In this document: positions 202-6,851 of the stretch, one piece after another
Layout: every line of letters begins with the position of its first letter
How positions within the stretch are numbered: the first letter of the stretch is position 1
Assembly: GCA_937864265.1 (NCBI GenBank)
Contig: CALMIR010000012.1
Location: forward strand, 1-64,000
Reading direction: 5' to 3'
DNA length: 64,000 nt
DNA from: an uncultured Saprospirales bacterium
GTDB lineage: Bacteria; Bacteroidota; Bacteroidia; Chitinophagales; Saprospiraceae
The notes under the pieces: generated by a model
The model's input: the letters and a program-made list of their open reading frames with translations, nothing else
Told to the model about the DNA's origin: nothing
Database searches by the model: none
Translations under genes and position numbers: made by a program

Positions 202-2331
202 ATGTCTGACCCAAAAGATACTTCCAAAAAACTGCCCAGCCTGCGCAGCAATAAACCGGGCAAGCGGGCAGAAGACCTTTCCAATTATGTTTTTGGGAAG
301 GTACAGCCGCAGGCTGTGCCTTTGGAAGAGGCCGTATTGGGTGCCTTAATGCTGGACAAAGAAGCGCTGCCCAAAGTATTGGATTCTCTCCGCTCCGATA
401 GTTTTTACTTGGAAGCGCACAAGCTCATCTATCAGGCCATGATCCGGCTGTTTGAAAAATCGCAGCCCATCGACCTGCTGACGGTAACAGAGGAGTTGAA
501 AAAATCGACTGATCTGGAAGCCGTAGGCGGCCCTTTTTATCTGGTAGAACTAACCAATAAAATTGCCTCTGCGGCCAATATTGAGTTTCATGCCCGCATC
601 ATCGCCCAGAAATACATCCAGCGCGAACTGATCCGCGTATCCACCAAAATTATCAACGACTCCTACGAGGACTCGACCGATGTATTCGACTTGCTGGATA
701 GCGCCGAGCAAGGCTTGTTTGCCATAGCCCAACAAAATATGAGTCGGGGTTTTGAAAGCATGTCCTCGCTGGCGGCCAAGGCCCAAAAGCAACTAGAAGA
801 ATTGCGCACCAAAGAAGACGGTCTGACTGGTGTCCCCACCGGATTTACCGAACTCGACCGGCTCACCTCCGGTTTTCAGCGCTCCGACCTCATCATCATC
901 GCAGCACGCCCCGGTATGGGTAAAACAGCCTTTACCCTCTCCCTGGCTAAAAACGCCGCCGCTGATTTTGGCAAGCCCGTTGCTTTGTTTTCCCTGGAAA
1001 TGTCTTCCCTGCAATTGGCACAGCGGGTCATCAGCATGGAAGCAGAAATATCGAGCATGAAGCTGCGCAACGGCCAACTAGAGGAATACGAATGGGCCCA
1101 GCTCAACCAGGCGCTGGAACGGGTCAGTGAGATTCCAATTTTTATCGACGATACTCCGGGCATCAATATATTCGAATTGCGAGCCAAAGCGCGCCGCTTG
1201 AAGATGCAGTACAACATCGACCTCATCATCATTGATTACCTGCAATTGATGAGTGGCGGCTCCGACAACCAAAAGGGCAATCGCGAACAAGAAGTAAGCG
1301 CCATTTCTCGAGCGCTAAAAAGCCTGGCCAAAGAACTCAATGTACCCGTCATCGCCCTATCGCAGCTCAGCCGAGCTGTGGAGGTAAGGGGCGGATCAAA
1401 GCGCCCGCAATTGTCGGACTTGAGGGAATCGGGGTGCCTCACAGGCGATACCTTACTGCAAGATGCAAGAACTGGCAAACGGATAACAATCAAAGAATTG
1501 GCAGAGCGAGACAACCAAGTGCCTTTAGAGGTACTGGCCATGGACGAAAGTTATCAACTATCCGGACACAGGTTGATCAAAGCTTTTTATTCCGGTCGAA
1601 AGCAAGTTTTTGAATTAAAAACCCGATCCGGCAAAAGGATCAAAGCCAGCGCCAATCATCCTTTTTTTAAACTGGAAGGCTGGACTGCATTAGAAAATTT
1701 GAATTTGGGTGATAAGATAGCTACGCCTAGGCAGATTAAAATAAGTCATCCTGACAATCCACTTTCAGATAACGAACTTATTTTACTGGCACACCTGATT
1801 GGAGATGGTTGTATTTTACCCAAGCAACCTTACCATTATACAAGTTCGGATACTGCAAATACAGCAATCGTCAAAGATGTCGCTGAAAACTTATTTGGCA
1901 TTAAAAGCAGAATAGCGCACTCAGACCTATTTTGGGACGAAATCACTCAAATCACTGCCCTTGGAGAAGAAGATGTTTACGATGCCACTGTAGAAAGTGT
2001 GCACAACTTTGTCGCTAACGACATCATTGTACATAACTCGATAGAACAGGATGCCGATATGGTGGCTTTCATCTATCGCCCCGAATACTACGACATCATG
2101 GAGGACGAAGAAGGGCAATCGCTCAAAGGTATAGCCGAAATCATCGTCGCCAAACACCGACATGGCGCATTGAAAAATGTGCGCCTGCGCTTCATGGCCG
2201 ATTATGCCCGTTTTTCCGATTTGGATGATCCCGACTTTGGTTTACTGCCCAGCAACACTTTCGATAATCCACAAAACAACATCATCACCCGTCCGTCGCG
2301 CATGAACGACGATGAGGATATACCATTCTAA
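202..2331 (+). CDS. dnaB: replicative DNA helicase DnaB, intein-containing precursor
   Basis: Hexameric 5'-3' helicase that unwinds DNA ahead of the replisome. The N-terminal DnaB domain covers roughly residues 35-140. The RecA-like motor follows, with Walker A GMGKT at residues 238-242, the Walker B segment DLIIIDYLQLM, and motif H3 ALSQLSRAVE. Motif H4 (LRESG then SIEQDADMV) is split by a 201-residue intein at residues 412-612. The 709-residue precursor would give a 508-residue helicase after splicing, a normal DnaB length. The frame is intact across both junctions, so this is an intein and not a disrupted gene. rluB follows 12 bp downstream and may be co-transcribed. Confidence 0.97.
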   Translation: MSDPKDTSKKLPSLRSNKPGKRAEDLSNYVFGKVQPQAVPLEEAVLGALMLDKEALPKVLDSLRSDSFYLEAHKLIYQAMIRLFEKSQPIDLLTVTEELKKSTDLEAVGGPFYLVELTNKIASAANIEFHARIIAQKYIQRELIRVSTKIINDSYEDSTDVFDLLDSAEQGLFAIAQQNMSRGFESMSSLAAKAQKQLEELRTKEDGLTGVPTGFTELDRLTSGFQRSDLIIIAARPGMGKTAFTLSLAKNAAADFGKPVALFSLEMSSLQLAQRVISMEAEISSMKLRNGQLEEYEWAQLNQALERVSEIPIFIDDTPGINIFELRAKARRLKMQYNIDLIIIDYLQLMSGGSDNQKGNREQEVSAISRALKSLAKELNVPVIALSQLSRAVEVRGGSKRPQLSDLRESGCLTGDTLLQDARTGKRITIKELAERDNQVPLEVLAMDESYQLSGHRLIKAFYSGRKQVFELKTRSGKRIKASANHPFFKLEGWTALENLNLGDKIATPRQIKISHPDNPLSDNELILLAHLIGDGCILPKQPYHYTSSDTANTAIVKDVAENLFGIKSRIAHSDLFWDEITQITALGEEDVYDATVESVHNFVANDIIVHNSIEQDADMVAFIYRPEYYDIMEDEEGQSLKGIAEIIVAKHRHGALKNVRLRFMADYARFSDLDDPDFGLLPSNTFDNPQNNIITRPSRMNDDEDIPF
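1435..2037 (+). mobile_element. DnaB intein (DnaB-b insertion site) with a shortened homing endonuclease
   Basis: The element starts with Cys412 (CLTGDT, block A). Block B has SANH in place of the usual TxxH, and a block F segment (VYDATVESVHNFVAND) precedes the terminal His-Asn, followed by Ser613 as the +1 residue. All residues needed for Cys1/Ser+1 splicing are present. The site, between RESG and SIEQDAD in motif H4, is the one used by the cyanobacterial Ssp DnaB intein. At 201 residues it lies between mini-inteins (about 150) and full inteins (about 400). One LAGLIDADG-type helix remains (LLAHLIGDG, residues 528-536), but the second copy and the sequence between are missing, so the endonuclease should be inactive. 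The DNA looks more AT-rich than the flanking dnaB. Confidence 0.95.
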
Positions 2332-3197: not shown

Positions 3198-4217
3198 TCA
3201 CTCCATCCGGTGCGCCGGATTTTCTACAAAAGTCCGATCTGTCAAGCTTTCCAAAAAGCGGATCAGTCGCTGGCGTTCTTGCTCGCTCAGGGTAAAAGGC
3301 TGGATCAAGTCGCTTTTATTGGGATGCTGACTGCCGCCCGAGGTGTAATGATCTAGCACAGCCGACAAATCGGGCAAGCTGCCGTCGTGCATATAAGGCG
3401 CCGTAAGGGCAATATTGCGCAGGCTGGGTACGCGAAATTTGCCCTCATCCTCCGGCAGGCTGGTCACTCGCTTTCTGCCCTGATCCTGATAGTTATCGTA
3501 AAGGCCGTTGTTTTGAAAACTGTTATCAGTAAGGTTAAAGCCGGAATGGCAGTTGCTGCAATGGGTTTCAAAGAGCGCAAGCCCTGCTAATTGCTCGGCA
3601 TCGAGCGCATCGGTTTGGCCATTTTTGTAGCGATCATAAGGCGCACCGCCGCTAACGAGGGTACGCATAAAAGCGCCCAGCGCACGGGTGAGGTAAAAGG
3701 CAGAAGCGGCATCGCCATAAGCCAATTGGAAGTCGGCGCGGTACGAAGCGTCGGCATTGAGGCGATCTACCACTTTCAGCAAGGATAAATCCATTTCGTT
3801 TTCATCTTCAATGGGCACAACAGGCTGGAGGTCGAGCTTAGCCACCCCGCCATCCTTGTTGAATTGACTGACCCAGGCAAGATTGGCCAAGCTGGGGGCG
3901 TTGCGAAACCCCAAGCGACCTTCCACACCAGGTGTAATGGGCAGACTATCAGCAAAGGCCAAATCGGCCTTATGGCAAGTGGCACAGGAGATGGACGAGT
4001 CGCGGGATAAAATCGGATCATAAAACAAGCGTTTGCCCAGAGCGACCCTGCCGACGGTTAGGGCGTTGTCTTCCGGAACCAGGGGCACAGGGAAGCCAGG
4101 GGGCAGGATCAATTCATAAGGCTGATCTTCCGCTGGCGGAGCACTGTCTTTCGTGCAGTAGAGAACTGTGAACACCAGGGCTAGCAAAGTATATCGGGGA
4201 AAATGTTTTTTTGCCAT
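3198..4217 (-). CDS. diheme cytochrome c peroxidase-family lipoprotein, MbnH-like (MauG family)
   Basis: Periplasmic diheme c-type protein of 339 residues. Residues 1-21 form a lipoprotein signal with Cys21. Two heme sites are seen: CATCH at 78-82 and CSNCH at 220-224. The FRNAPSLANL and FRVPSLRNIALTAPYMHDGSLPDL segments are typical of the CCP/MauG family. In the known MbnP/MbnH pair, MbnH is a MauG-like enzyme that oxidises a Trp of its partner to kynurenine. The gene lies 68 bp downstream of an MbnP homologue in the same direction, which favours an MbnH-like role over a classical peroxide-detoxifying peroxidase. Activity on the partner is inference. Confidence 0.85.
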   Translation of the reverse strand: MAKKHFPRYTLLALVFTVLYCTKDSAPPAEDQPYELILPPGFPVPLVPEDNALTVGRVALGKRLFYDPILSRDSSISCATCHKADLAFADSLPITPGVEGRLGFRNAPSLANLAWVSQFNKDGGVAKLDLQPVVPIEDENEMDLSLLKVVDRLNADASYRADFQLAYGDAASAFYLTRALGAFMRTLVSGGAPYDRYKNGQTDALDAEQLAGLALFETHCSNCHSGFNLTDNSFQNNGLYDNYQDQGRKRVTSLPEDEGKFRVPSLRNIALTAPYMHDGSLPDLSAVLDHYTSGGSQHPNKSDLIQPFTLSEQERQRLIRFLESLTDRTFVENPAHRME

Positions 4218-4240
4218 CGTCCAACTCTTGATGAAAAGCG

Positions 4241-4273
4241 ATCCCGCTTTCTGTTTTTTATAGAAAGCGGGAT
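4241..4273 (-). promoter_or_regulatory. intercistronic hairpin between the mbnP-like and mbnH-like genes
   Basis: Perfect 12-bp inverted repeat (ATCCCGCTTTCT at 4241-4252 and its complement at 4262-4273) with a 9-base AT loop. It lies just after the MbnP-like stop and 23 bp before the MbnH-like start. No proper U-tract follows on the minus strand. It could act as a partial terminator or an mRNA 3'-end stabiliser that lowers peroxidase output relative to its partner. Confidence 0.55.
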
Positions 4274-4285
4274 GCGCAGCGCTAA

Positions 4286-5032
4286 TTATTCCAGTCCCAA
4301 TGCTTTGGACAAGTTGTCGCGCAACTTGGTCGCCAAAGGCAGATTATCGCCTGTATGCGTGGAATAGTCTGTACTCAAATCAATGCCATCCAACAATTCA
4401 TTGATGTTGAAGTGAAAGTGCAGGTGGGTATGATCCCCTTCGATGTCGTGGTGAGCCGGGAATTCCAGGTTCTTCAACATATCGTCATTGCCCAGGTGCA
4501 TAGCCATAGGCGTTTCTGGTGTACCATCGCCATCTGTATCCACCTTACCATCTATACGAAGAAATTTATAGCCAGAATTCCAGCTCCAGTGCATGGTAGG
4601 ATCCTGGATCGCCAATGGATCGTCTGCATTCCGGCTGGTAAAATCCTCTTCGGTTTGGCTGTTTTCTTCAGGAGCAACACCTACGAAGAACTTGATCTCG
4701 TGGTAGTGGCCGGATTTCACTTCGGTTACTTCATATTCATCCACATCAGGCTTAACCAGCAGGTATTTGCCTTCTACATGGGTGTGCTCCCCTTCTTCCG
4801 GGTGCAATTCAATACCACCAACATAGAAATTAAGCACATCTATCTGGACGGCTGTTCCACCAATGGTATAAACCTGCCCAACCTGGAAATCTCCGTCATT
4901 AACGGTATAACCAAATTCAAAGCTCACTTCCGTATTGGTTTCGGATGGCGTATCGTCCTCGTTTTTACATCCGGTAATGACCAGTGCAGGAAGCGCTAAA
5001 AATGCCAGGAATAAAAATTTGAAGTTTTTCAT
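4286..5032 (-). CDS. MbnP-family copper-binding lipoprotein
   Basis: Protein of 248 residues with a lipoprotein signal (VITGC, Cys22). It matches the MbnP family: a beta-rich core starting VSFEFGYTVNDGDFQVGQVY, the conserved HWSWNSGYKFLRIDG segment with Trp149 and Trp151, and many His clusters (EHTHVEG, SGHYHE, HHDIEGDHTHLHFHF near residues 194-208). Family members bind copper in the periplasm and carry a Trp-derived kynurenine made by MbnH. One of the two Trp residues is the likely modification site here, by inference. It is followed by the diheme peroxidase gene and preceded by the DUF4625 lipoprotein gene at 50 bp. Confidence 0.85.
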   Translation of the reverse strand: MKNFKFLFLAFLALPALVITGCKNEDDTPSETNTEVSFEFGYTVNDGDFQVGQVYTIGGTAVQIDVLNFYVGGIELHPEEGEHTHVEGKYLLVKPDVDEYEVTEVKSGHYHEIKFFVGVAPEENSQTEEDFTSRNADDPLAIQDPTMHWSWNSGYKFLRIDGKVDTDGDGTPETPMAMHLGNDDMLKNLEFPAHHDIEGDHTHLHFHFNINELLDGIDLSTDYSTHTGDNLPLATKLRDNLSKALGLE

Positions 5033-5081
5033 GTTTTTTAAAAAATTTAAACGGTGATTTTATTAAACAATTAGGTTTCAC

Positions 5082-5474
5082 TTAACGAGTTTTGATCGGC
5101 AACGCTGTTTTGGTGACGTTGTCGTCGTGATCGATGGCTTCTACATCAATCAAAAAAGTCTGCCCGCTTTCTTTAGGAAGCACAAAACTGGTATCTACTC
5201 TAACGTTGGTACCGTGAATGTGATTCTTTGCGATCAAACTAAGAGGTATATTGGTAGTGCCGTTGACCAAAATGATGTGGTAGGTGTGCAGACCCAGGTT
5301 TTCAGAAATATCAACCACCAGCGATACTTCATCGCCCGGATTGAACACTTGGTCGCGCTGAGGTTGCACAAAAACAACATCGGGGCCAGCCACATCAAAT
5401 TCAGGTGCTGTACGTTTGCTGCAAGCCCCCATTGCCAGGGTCAATAGCAGCAAACTTGAAAGCCTGTATATCAT
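5082..5474 (-). CDS. DUF4625-like lipoprotein
   Basis: Small lipoprotein of 130 residues with a lipobox ending MGAC (Cys17). The rest is predicted as a single Ig-like beta-sandwich: PDVVFVQPQRDQVFNPGDEV, then SENLGLHTYHIILVNG and a final DVEAIDHDDNVTKTALPI strand. This resembles the DUF4625 family of Bacteroidota, whose function is unknown. Its place between the barrel gene (12 bp) and the MbnP-like gene (49 bp) makes it part of the same transcription unit. His residues in HTYH and KNHIHG could bind metal. Confidence 0.7.
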   Translation of the reverse strand: MIYRLSSLLLLTLAMGACSKRTAPEFDVAGPDVVFVQPQRDQVFNPGDEVSLVVDISENLGLHTYHIILVNGTTNIPLSLIAKNHIHGTNVRVDTSFVLPKESGQTFLIDVEAIDHDDNVTKTALPIKTR

Positions 5475-5486
5475 GTGAATTGATTT

Positions 5487-6371
5487 TTAAAAAAAGACAT
5501 TCATTCTAGCCGTAAGCCTCGGTTGGGCTTCCACCAATGCATTATTCCATTGTTCGCTGATCGGCAAATTGACGTTGAACCCCACGTGATAGCGATTCCA
5601 GTACAGCTCACAGCCGAGGTTGGCAAAAAGGGCTTCACCTCCGGTGTCGGTTCTGAAGTACCCGCGTTCGACATCCCGATGGGCATGGTCGTACAATACA
5701 CCCACGCTGGGCATCACATCTGTACGGCCCATTGGAAAACTGCGGAATACATTGACTGCTGCATTAAGCCGATTGCCAAAATGGTAATCTGCTGAACTGT
5801 AACCGTTTTTGCGCCAACTGGCATCTGCATTCAAGCCCATGTCGCGCCAGCGCAGGGTATAAGACAGGTTGAACAATAAGTCCCAACTGCCCGTTCCCAC
5901 TTGAAAGCCCGGATAAACGATGGCATCGCTGGCCGGCTGCTCAAATTCGCCCGTGGGCATTTTCAATCCTAAGCCTAGGCTCAGGCGGTGTTTAAATACA
6001 CGCAACAAGCTATCGCTTTGATCAATAGGCGCATAGCTAGCCATAGCAAAAGCATCGCCTATGCCCTGCAAAGTACCCGACTGACGCTGATTGATGGCGT
6101 AGGGTAAAATGCCCAGCAACTGCACGCGGCGGTGCAGGCTATAACGCCCCCTCAATTCAAAGACCTGAAACTGCTCGCGGGTCATGGACTGCTCGCCATT
6201 CGCCAAATTGCGATAACCTTGTTGCTGCCACCATAGGCCAACAAAGTTTTGATTGCCCGATTGCAGCCCCCAGAATAGTTGGGTCATGCTGCACCCGCAT
6301 ACATCGCAGGCCAGCCCTTTGTTGCCCACCAGCAACAGCAGCAGGGCAACGAAAAGTATTTTGAGATTCAT
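5487..6371 (-). CDS. outer-membrane beta-barrel protein with N-terminal CxxCxC motif
   Basis: Signal peptide (residues 1-21) followed at once by CDVCGC (Cys22, 25, 27) in the mature N-terminus. The remainder alternates short hydrophobic and polar stretches with many aromatic residues and ends in Phe (MNVFF), as outer-membrane barrels do. It resembles porin-like transporter families, such as those near phenol-degradation MetA proteins, but no exact family is certain. The ATG at 6371 is preferred to an upstream ATG at 6431 because it begins a clean signal peptide. The Cys cluster and the MbnP/MbnH neighbours suggest metal (copper) contact at the outer membrane. Confidence 0.7.
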   Translation of the reverse strand: MNLKILFVALLLLLVGNKGLACDVCGCSMTQLFWGLQSGNQNFVGLWWQQQGYRNLANGEQSMTREQFQVFELRGRYSLHRRVQLLGILPYAINQRQSGTLQGIGDAFAMASYAPIDQSDSLLRVFKHRLSLGLGLKMPTGEFEQPASDAIVYPGFQVGTGSWDLLFNLSYTLRWRDMGLNADASWRKNGYSSADYHFGNRLNAAVNVFRSFPMGRTDVMPSVGVLYDHAHRDVERGYFRTDTGGEALFANLGCELYWNRYHVGFNVNLPISEQWNNALVEAQPRLTARMNVFF

Positions 6372-6461
6372 TGTTTCCGAAAAGGTACAGCTATAAAATG
6401 CCTGCAAAACCAGGCTTTTTGATGGCTGCAAAATGAAAAATGGAATAATCTTGACTTGGAA

Positions 6462-6851
6462 CTAAACGGAACGCGGGCTTTCCGGTGGGTGGAAAATGCT
6501 GTTTAAGAAGGCGTGGGGAGAATACGTAGCTTCTAGCATAGGAATCAACTCTTCAATCACTGCATCGCAAACAATTGGAGCTAATGCAACGTTGGGCATC
6601 ATCCAGTTGAAAGCAGGGTACTCAACCGGCGTAGCAGGCATTTCGTCCTGCCCATGATTTTCCATGGCGTTTTTGATCATCTTCCCGATGTAGCAACTGC
6701 CATTGCATTGCAACAAAGGATTGTCCCGGTTGATGCAGTAATTTTTGGAAATGAAGCCCCTGTTCCATTCCAGCCAAGAGATGGATGCTGGTAGATAGAT
6801 TACCTGCCAGAGTACCAGGACAAGCCACAACATATTGAGGCAAAGCTTCAT
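6462..6851 (-). CDS. small membrane protein with a CNGSCY cysteine motif
   Basis: Protein of about 129 residues with one N-terminal hydrophobic helix (residues 4-22). A motif YCINRDNPLLQCNGSCYIGK follows, with Cys39, Cys49 and Cys53. Similar small proteins with an NxxxPxLxCxGxC pattern are found in Bacteroidota near metal-uptake genes; that link is from memory of the family. A start at 6851 is chosen over 6866 because it begins the signal-like helix and because a TAnnTTTG box lies at 6856-6863, inside the longer version. It is the first gene of the copper-type cluster. Confidence 0.6.
   Translation of the reverse strand: MKLCLNMLWLVLVLWQVIYLPASISWLEWNRGFISKNYCINRDNPLLQCNGSCYIGKMIKNAMENHGQDEMPATPVEYPAFNWMMPNVALAPIVCDAVIEELIPMLEATYSPHAFLNSIFHPPESPRSV

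Follow-up and report, generated by a model that had tools for sequence, protein, structure and literature searches.

A candidate copper-sensing arrest peptide at the head of an MbnP/MbnH gene cluster in Bacteroidota

Introduction

Copper sensing and import in Bacteroidota are largely uncharted. A 64,000-nucleotide stretch from an uncultured Saprospirales bacterium (contig CALMIR010000012.1 of assembly GCA_937864265.1, family Saprospiraceae; referred to here as the window) contains five neighbouring genes, which encode the lipoprotein MbnP, the MauG-like protein MbnH, a putative outer-membrane barrel (BAR), a DUF4625-related lipoprotein (LP) and a small membrane protein with a CNGSC motif (CNG). 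An initial annotation had proposed that the five products together form a copper acquisition or storage system. What, then, does the small protein of an unnamed family contribute to such a system? Based on the position and sequence motifs of CNG we propose that the cluster serves copper acquisition and is led, as an operon, by a copper-sensing arrest peptide, a reading to which we assign a probability of roughly 0.7. The copper role itself fits, since an OprC/TonB-copper-like receptor takes the place of BAR elsewhere and SCO and PepSY_TM proteins are common partners; CNG, however, fits a copper-sensing leader better than a structural component of the system.

The closest precedent is CruR (Bp2923, DUF2946/PF11162), the copper-responsive upstream regulator of Bordetella pertussis (PMC9426467). 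CruR is a small exported protein with a Cys motif and a C-terminal RAPP three residues from its end; the spacing between the two varies by no more than one or two residues and a long gap precedes the next gene (PMC9426467). It comes first in operons with TonB-dependent transporter (TBDT), PepSY_TM, SCO or MbnPH genes (PMC9426467), and its arrest has been demonstrated in vitro (PMC12992588). In published scans copper-related RAPP/RGPP leaders were absent from Bacteroidota.

Results

To place the window proteins in context, 395 Bacteroidota genomes were scanned for MbnP, 97 of which were positive; about 100 loci were collected and an iterative profile was built for each window protein. Recurrence counts rest on 102 MbnP-bearing loci. 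Identifiers with L denote loci and those with G genomes, G000 being the window's own. All loci are genome sequence only, with gene calls made in this analysis, and the members are related, so that counts are not independent trials.

The CNG family is present in 163 of the 395 genomes, with three copies in the window's genome, and is annotated as "hypothetical protein" in named genomes. CNG gives no meaningful match to Pfam or NCBIfam, and the family may have been described before, as the literature covered was incomplete. Three cysteines (C..CxGxC) are invariant in the members aligned (30 and 59 sequences). In 120 of 121 distinct members the C.G.C motif is combined with a Pro-Pro whose end lies 1-8 residues ahead of the stop; PP-less members are somewhat under-sampled in this collection because the profile was built from mostly PP-bearing ones. 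The terminal motif is usually F[HRK]PP, with FHPP in 59 and FRPP in 24 of the 121. As a background, Pro-Pro occurs within the last 15 residues in 36 of 1311 other genes of the first locus set, and in 20 of 261 of similar size. Cys motif and Pro-Pro are on average 66.3 residues apart (sd 1.9, range 61-73), while pairwise identity in the linker between them averages 11% and each sequence has 3-5 gap runs there. Thus, length rather than sequence is maintained.

We then considered where CNG stands relative to other genes. The first 59 members were gathered solely as MbnP neighbours, by similarity to the window protein, and most members were sampled via MbnP loci or the CNG profile, never by the next gene. 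The gene after CNG is co-directional in 118 of 119 cases and encodes MbnP (38), a TonB receptor (32), the lipoprotein c6 (14) or BAR (7); a further 13 are other open reading frames (ORFs) of 700-800 amino acids, of which the one tested is a TonB receptor. The median gap behind CNG is 111.5 nt, compared to 3 nt behind MbnP. At 60 CNG loci away from MbnP the common downstream genes encode TonB receptors, c6 plus a receptor, BAR, SCO and PepSY_TM. For example, plasmids of Hymenobacter tibetensis and H. volaticus carry CNG followed by a TonB-dependent receptor and a PepSY protein, the CNG tails being DHPPAEGLMTTRFS and DHPPAEQLMSTRFS, and in Spirosoma oryzicola CNG (tail LLRPPCA) is followed by a hypothetical gene, SCO and PepSY_TM. 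The window's genome has two further CNG leaders, on contigs C169 (L171) and C139 (L172); one is followed immediately by a TonB receptor gene, the other by two small genes and one for PepSY_TM. By its position, its arrest-like C-terminal motif and the fixed sensor-to-motif spacing, CNG is a candidate copper-responsive arrest-peptide upstream ORF.

Further evidence comes from the proteins that occupy the same slot in other loci. DUF2946, the family of CruR, is rare in the phylum, where CNG dominates (11 against 163 of 395 genomes); five of the 11 are over the cut-off and none is the window's genome. DUF2946 leaders with a terminal RGPP are found ahead of MbnP at L123, over the Pfam cut-off, and L237, with a weak match at L115 and RGPP look-alikes at L112 and L124. 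They sit exactly at the position that CNG takes in other loci, and each of the two leader families carries a Cys or CPY motif and ends in xPP. Also present in this slot ahead of MbnP are unrelated Cys-rich small proteins, at L125:6571-7044 (VFHPP), L046:8118-8495 (WTPP) and L038:2366-2824 (C-terminal YKPP), which are possibly further arrest-leader families. We regard the sharing of one slot by unrelated families that end in xPP as the strongest argument that selection acts on the terminal Pro-Pro rather than on the fold of the leader.

The neighbours recur with MbnP across the phylum, as the check proposed with the initial annotation had asked: CNG is present in 45 and BAR in 34 of the 102 loci, so that the refuting case named there, a lack of recurrence of the neighbours, is contradicted. 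CNG is accompanied by BAR in 32 loci and by the TonB receptor c5 in nine, and is without either in four; c5 alone is found in eight, BAR alone in two and none of the three in 47. The commonest order in relatives is CNG > MbnP > MbnH > BAR. The complete five-gene order occurs in three other loci, each in a different genome and all in the window's family (L271, L275 and L277), where the reduced sets CNG-BAR-LP (L274, L279, L282, L283, L287) and CNG-BAR-MbnP-MbnH (L273, L278, L280, L284) are also found. Only part of the five-gene system is specific to MbnPH, since CNG heads operons with or without this pair and BAR accompanies CNG without it.

BAR has weak similarity in the Protein Data Bank (PDB) to the outer-membrane proteins FapF and 4rl8. 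Among its 45 closest homologues in the 395 genomes, 41 lie at most 6 kb from an MbnP, and in G158 and G045 the homologue directly follows a CNG gene. BAR also occurs with CNG, sometimes together with LP, where MbnPH is missing. BAR and c5 are never found together in the 102 MbnP loci, and of all NCBIfam models TIGR01778, "TonB-dependent copper receptor", scores highest with four of five c5 members tested, though below its cut-off. As c5 replaces BAR without co-occurring and matches this model best, BAR appears to fill the outer-membrane slot held elsewhere by an OprC-like receptor. Whereas c5 resembles the OprC/NosA-type receptors (TIGR01778) and takes the slot in BAR-less MbnPH loci, BAR is a smaller and unrelated barrel (about 270 residues) that has a CDxCGC motif and lacks a plug. 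TonB-siderophore-type receptors are likewise found downstream of CNG.

The DUF4625 label given earlier to LP is supported by kinship and not by the window protein itself: LP has no match to PF15418, while its slot-mates at L277 (31.9 bits) and L271 (28.7 bits) exceed the cut-off of 27. A direct phylum-wide sequence search with LP gave one match. With an iterated profile LP recurs directly behind BAR within the window's family, with matches in 10 of 80 family genomes.

The adjacent MbnP/MbnH pair is genuine. MbnP passes Pfam PF20243 (111.4 bits against a cut-off of 27, E 6.7e-32) and remains below the cut-off of NCBIfam TIGR04052, the WxW equivalog (54.2 against 140 bits). A phmmer search of the PDB with the single MbnP sequence gave no match; the MbnP profile matches PDB 7l6g (E 1.6e-8), with M147, W149, W151 and H179 aligned onto its GMxWxW...H segment. 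Among 21 diverse relatives neither W149 nor H179 varies, and W151 is nearly invariant. The Trp149/Trp151 pair, correctly numbered in the initial annotation, had been named there as a candidate for kynurenine formation. In a 2021 PNAS study of MbnP the copper site reportedly consists of His, Met and a kynurenine derived from the first Trp of WxW. As the Met/Trp/His site is conserved, formation of kynurenine in the window MbnP is plausible.

MbnH passes the Pfam CCP_MauG model. Its best NCBIfam model is TIGR04039, "MbnH family" (261.6 bits, below the cut-off of 362.85), and the top match in the PDB is 6e1c, a "Di-heme enzyme". Both heme-binding sites (C78-C81-H82 and C220-C223-H224) and Tyr291 are invariant in 15 sequences; Tyr291 is predicted to replace the Met of peroxidases as ligand of the second heme. 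The pair thus resembles MbnP/MbnH of methanotrophs (PDB 7l6g, 6e1c; Manesis et al. 2021, cited in PMC9426467) in gene adjacency, in the WxW, Met and His copper site, in the di-heme CCP/MauG fold and in the Tyr replacing Met. It differs from them as a lipoprotein version below the NCBIfam cut-offs, with CNG, BAR and LP as partners and without methanobactin genes. The absence of the latter, noted before from the window, extends to any MbnB-type family member in the contig. The only PF05114 (MbnB/TglH/ChrH-type) gene of the genome lies on another contig (C71:61279-61908, L291; 107 bits) and may be part of a bufferin-like copper peptide system. Three additional MbnP genes are present in the genome at two other loci, on C54 (L038) and C35 (L039), neither of which has a CNG leader. 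One of these loci is a tandem MbnP-MbnP-MbnH-MbnH array behind ApbE-like and DnaQ-like genes, and the MbnP-MbnP-MbnH part of this layout is common to G037, G064 and G158.

The coordinates are collected in Table 1. All five genes are complete ORFs of the minus strand, in agreement with the co-directional arrangement described in the initial annotation, and run in the order CNG > BAR > LP > MbnP > MbnH from 6851 to 3198, with successive gaps of 90, 12, 49 and 68 nt. The BAR start was taken as the ATG at 6371; the listed ORF runs further, to a TTG at 6431. An unrelated DUF4180 gene lies on the same strand 114 nt upstream of the cluster. Downstream of MbnH the neighbours are convergent, an RNA pseudouridine synthase gene followed by dnaB. 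The DnaB helicase (202-2331, plus strand) contains an in-frame intein (PF14890 Intein_splicing, residues ~424-612, E 5.9e-25), in which no match to a homing-endonuclease domain was found.

Table 1. Features of the five-gene cluster, with positions in the window
Feature	Position	Strand	Remarks
CNG leader protein, 129 aa	6462..6851	-	hydrophobic N-terminal anchor at about residues 3-25; Cys39; Cys49-x-Gly-x-Cys53; C-terminal FHPP
Cys39 codon of CNG	6735..6737	-	conserved without exception in 30 and 59 aligned members
CNGSC motif of CNG, proposed copper-sensing site	6693..6707	-	Cys49, Gly51 and Cys53 invariant
Proposed ribosome-arrest site, FHPP of CNG with Pro122-Pro123 six residues ahead of the stop	6483..6494	-	
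CNG-BAR gap, 90 nt	6372..6461	-	between leader and first structural gene
BAR, putative outer-membrane beta-barrel	5487..6371	-	family A3; CDVCGC at mature N-terminus
LP, DUF4625-related lipoprotein	5082..5474	-	His63 and His85 nearly invariant
MbnP lipoprotein	4286..5032	-	PF20243 match
M147-H-W149-S-W151 of MbnP, candidate Cu-ligand Met and candidate kynurenine-forming WxW	4580..4594	-	
His179 of MbnP, candidate Cu ligand	4496..4498	-	
MbnH/MauG-like di-heme enzyme	3198..4217	-	two CxxCH sites; invariant Tyr291

Discussion

The gene content and its conservation, the place of CNG at operon heads, its invariant motifs and its constant spacing are direct observations, and the same holds for the way in which copper-type TonB receptors and BAR, or DUF2946/CruR leaders and CNG, stand in for one another. 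Like CruR, CNG is a small exported leader heading copper operons, with an invariant Cys pair, an invariant Pro-Pro near the stop, a fixed spacing between them and a long gap behind. The CruR-CrtA-PepSY_TM arrangement of Bordetella (PMC9426467, PMC12914433) is mirrored by CNG-TBDT-PepSY_TM. In contrast to CruR, CNG has three cysteines (C..CxGxC) instead of CXXC, ends in F[HRK]PP instead of RAPP and keeps a spacing of 66 instead of 45 residues.

Stalling, copper as the ligand, the sign of regulation, transport and kynurenine formation are proposed by homology or analogy. The nascent CNG chain would be targeted to the membrane during translation. Under copper scarcity the ribosome would stall at Pro122-Pro123, and the downstream genes would stay on; binding of Cu(I) by Cys39, Cys49 and Cys53 of the emerging chain would release the stall and turn down the rest of the operon, with Rho, attenuation or start-site masking as conceivable routes. 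Downstream, the operon would supply BAR as an outer-membrane barrel, LP as a lipoprotein with His residues at the surface or in the periplasm, and MbnP as the copper protein, in which MbnH would oxidise the first Trp of WxW to kynurenine and so complete the copper site. The least certain step is the ruler of about 66 residues (45 in CruR), by which the chain would span the ribosome tunnel and the translocon while its cysteines sense periplasmic copper. A literature search for the number of residues that tunnel and translocon accommodate gave no usable value. Together with the N-terminal anchor, the length of the ruler leads us to predict periplasmic sensing for CNG, whereas cytoplasmic, signal-peptide-independent sensing has been proposed for CruR.

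Several observations weigh against the arrest-peptide reading. Not even a distant relationship between CNG and DUF2946 was found, with 0 of 30 members matching PF11162 and an hhalign probability of 1.8%, and we have dropped this idea. FHPP differs from the proven RAPP/RGPP. A few members deviate, with a spacing of 81 at L285 and no Pro-Pro at L276 and L099. CutF of Rhodobacter capsulatus, a relative of CruR, shows no detectable stalling and responds in the opposite direction (PMC9973294). In common with CNG it is an exported leader ahead of a copper gene, with a CxxxC motif and a C-terminus rich in proline; it differs in being a DUF2946 protein that promotes expression when copper is present and acts on a stem-loop shielding the next start site (PMC9973294). 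RNA folding of the leader gaps gives a mean z of -2.54 compared to -2.04 in ordinary co-directional control gaps, and provides no discriminating evidence for a stem-loop action as in CutF. As the control gaps are about equally structured, the folding does not point to a structured attenuator in the leader gap; the gaps contain 25 terminator-like hairpins against 6.4 expected, a count that has no counterpart for the control gaps. The window MbnH (segment QFNKDGG) lacks the Trp of the FFWDG segment of many relatives, which is probably the inter-heme Trp of the superfamily; Flavobacteria have Phe or Tyr at this position. Finally, a literature search of incomplete coverage found no copper-response data on Bacteroidota versions.

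In the foremost alternative CNG would persist as a finished protein anchored in the membrane, a Cu(I)-binding chaperone or reductase partner, with the terminal Pro-Pro as a structural or docking element. Its three invariant cysteines, hydrophobic N-terminal anchor and copper-type operon partners would suit such a protein. Yet nothing beyond the Cys region is conserved while the distance to the Pro-Pro is fixed, CNG is nearly always at the head of the unit with a long gap after it, and RGPP-ending DUF2946 leaders substitute for it in the same slot, and we consider a stable protein unlikely. Next in order, and likewise improbable, comes an arrest-type leader through which copper switches the operon on, as in CutF/CopL-like systems, so that the genes serve tolerance or detoxification and not uptake. 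CutF does work in this direction (PMC9973294) and MbnP, a presumed tight Cu(I) binder, could serve as a sink, but CNG usually goes together with outer-membrane receptors and PepSY_TM/SCO proteins, which are copper-repressed in Bordetella (PMC9426467, PMC12914433), and efflux genes are not among its recurrent neighbours.

That CNG senses another metal or state, such as zinc, iron or thiol redox, seems to us quite improbable: sites of three cysteines are able to bind other metals and siderophore-type receptors too follow CNG, but MbnP, SCO, OprC-like receptors and PepSY_TM indicate copper across independent operons. Hardly credible is a chance or lineage-local neighbourhood of the five genes. 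Although their exact order is confined to the window's family, in which just 10 of 80 genomes match LP, the recurrence of CNG-MbnP-MbnH-BAR in many families of the phylum already contradicts it. We thus retain CNG as a candidate copper-sensing arrest peptide of the window's operon. For the wider proposal, that CNG proteins are phylum-wide copper-sensing arrest peptides of non-CruR sequence, with an F[HRK]PP stall and a 66-residue ruler reading periplasmic copper, and form the main switch of Bacteroidota copper-uptake operons including those with MbnPH, we see the chances as evenly balanced.

A copper arrest-peptide switch has been thought to be missing from Bacteroidota, and CNG, if the proposal is true, would fill this gap with an independent sequence solution. 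It would expand the known arrest motifs and provide a function for an unnamed family present in about 40% of the sampled genomes of the phylum. A comparison of the rulers of 66 and 45 residues would test directly if a nascent chain can read a metal beyond the membrane. A dedicated barrel, BAR, and a lipoprotein would then also be linked to the copper chemistry of MbnP/MbnH.

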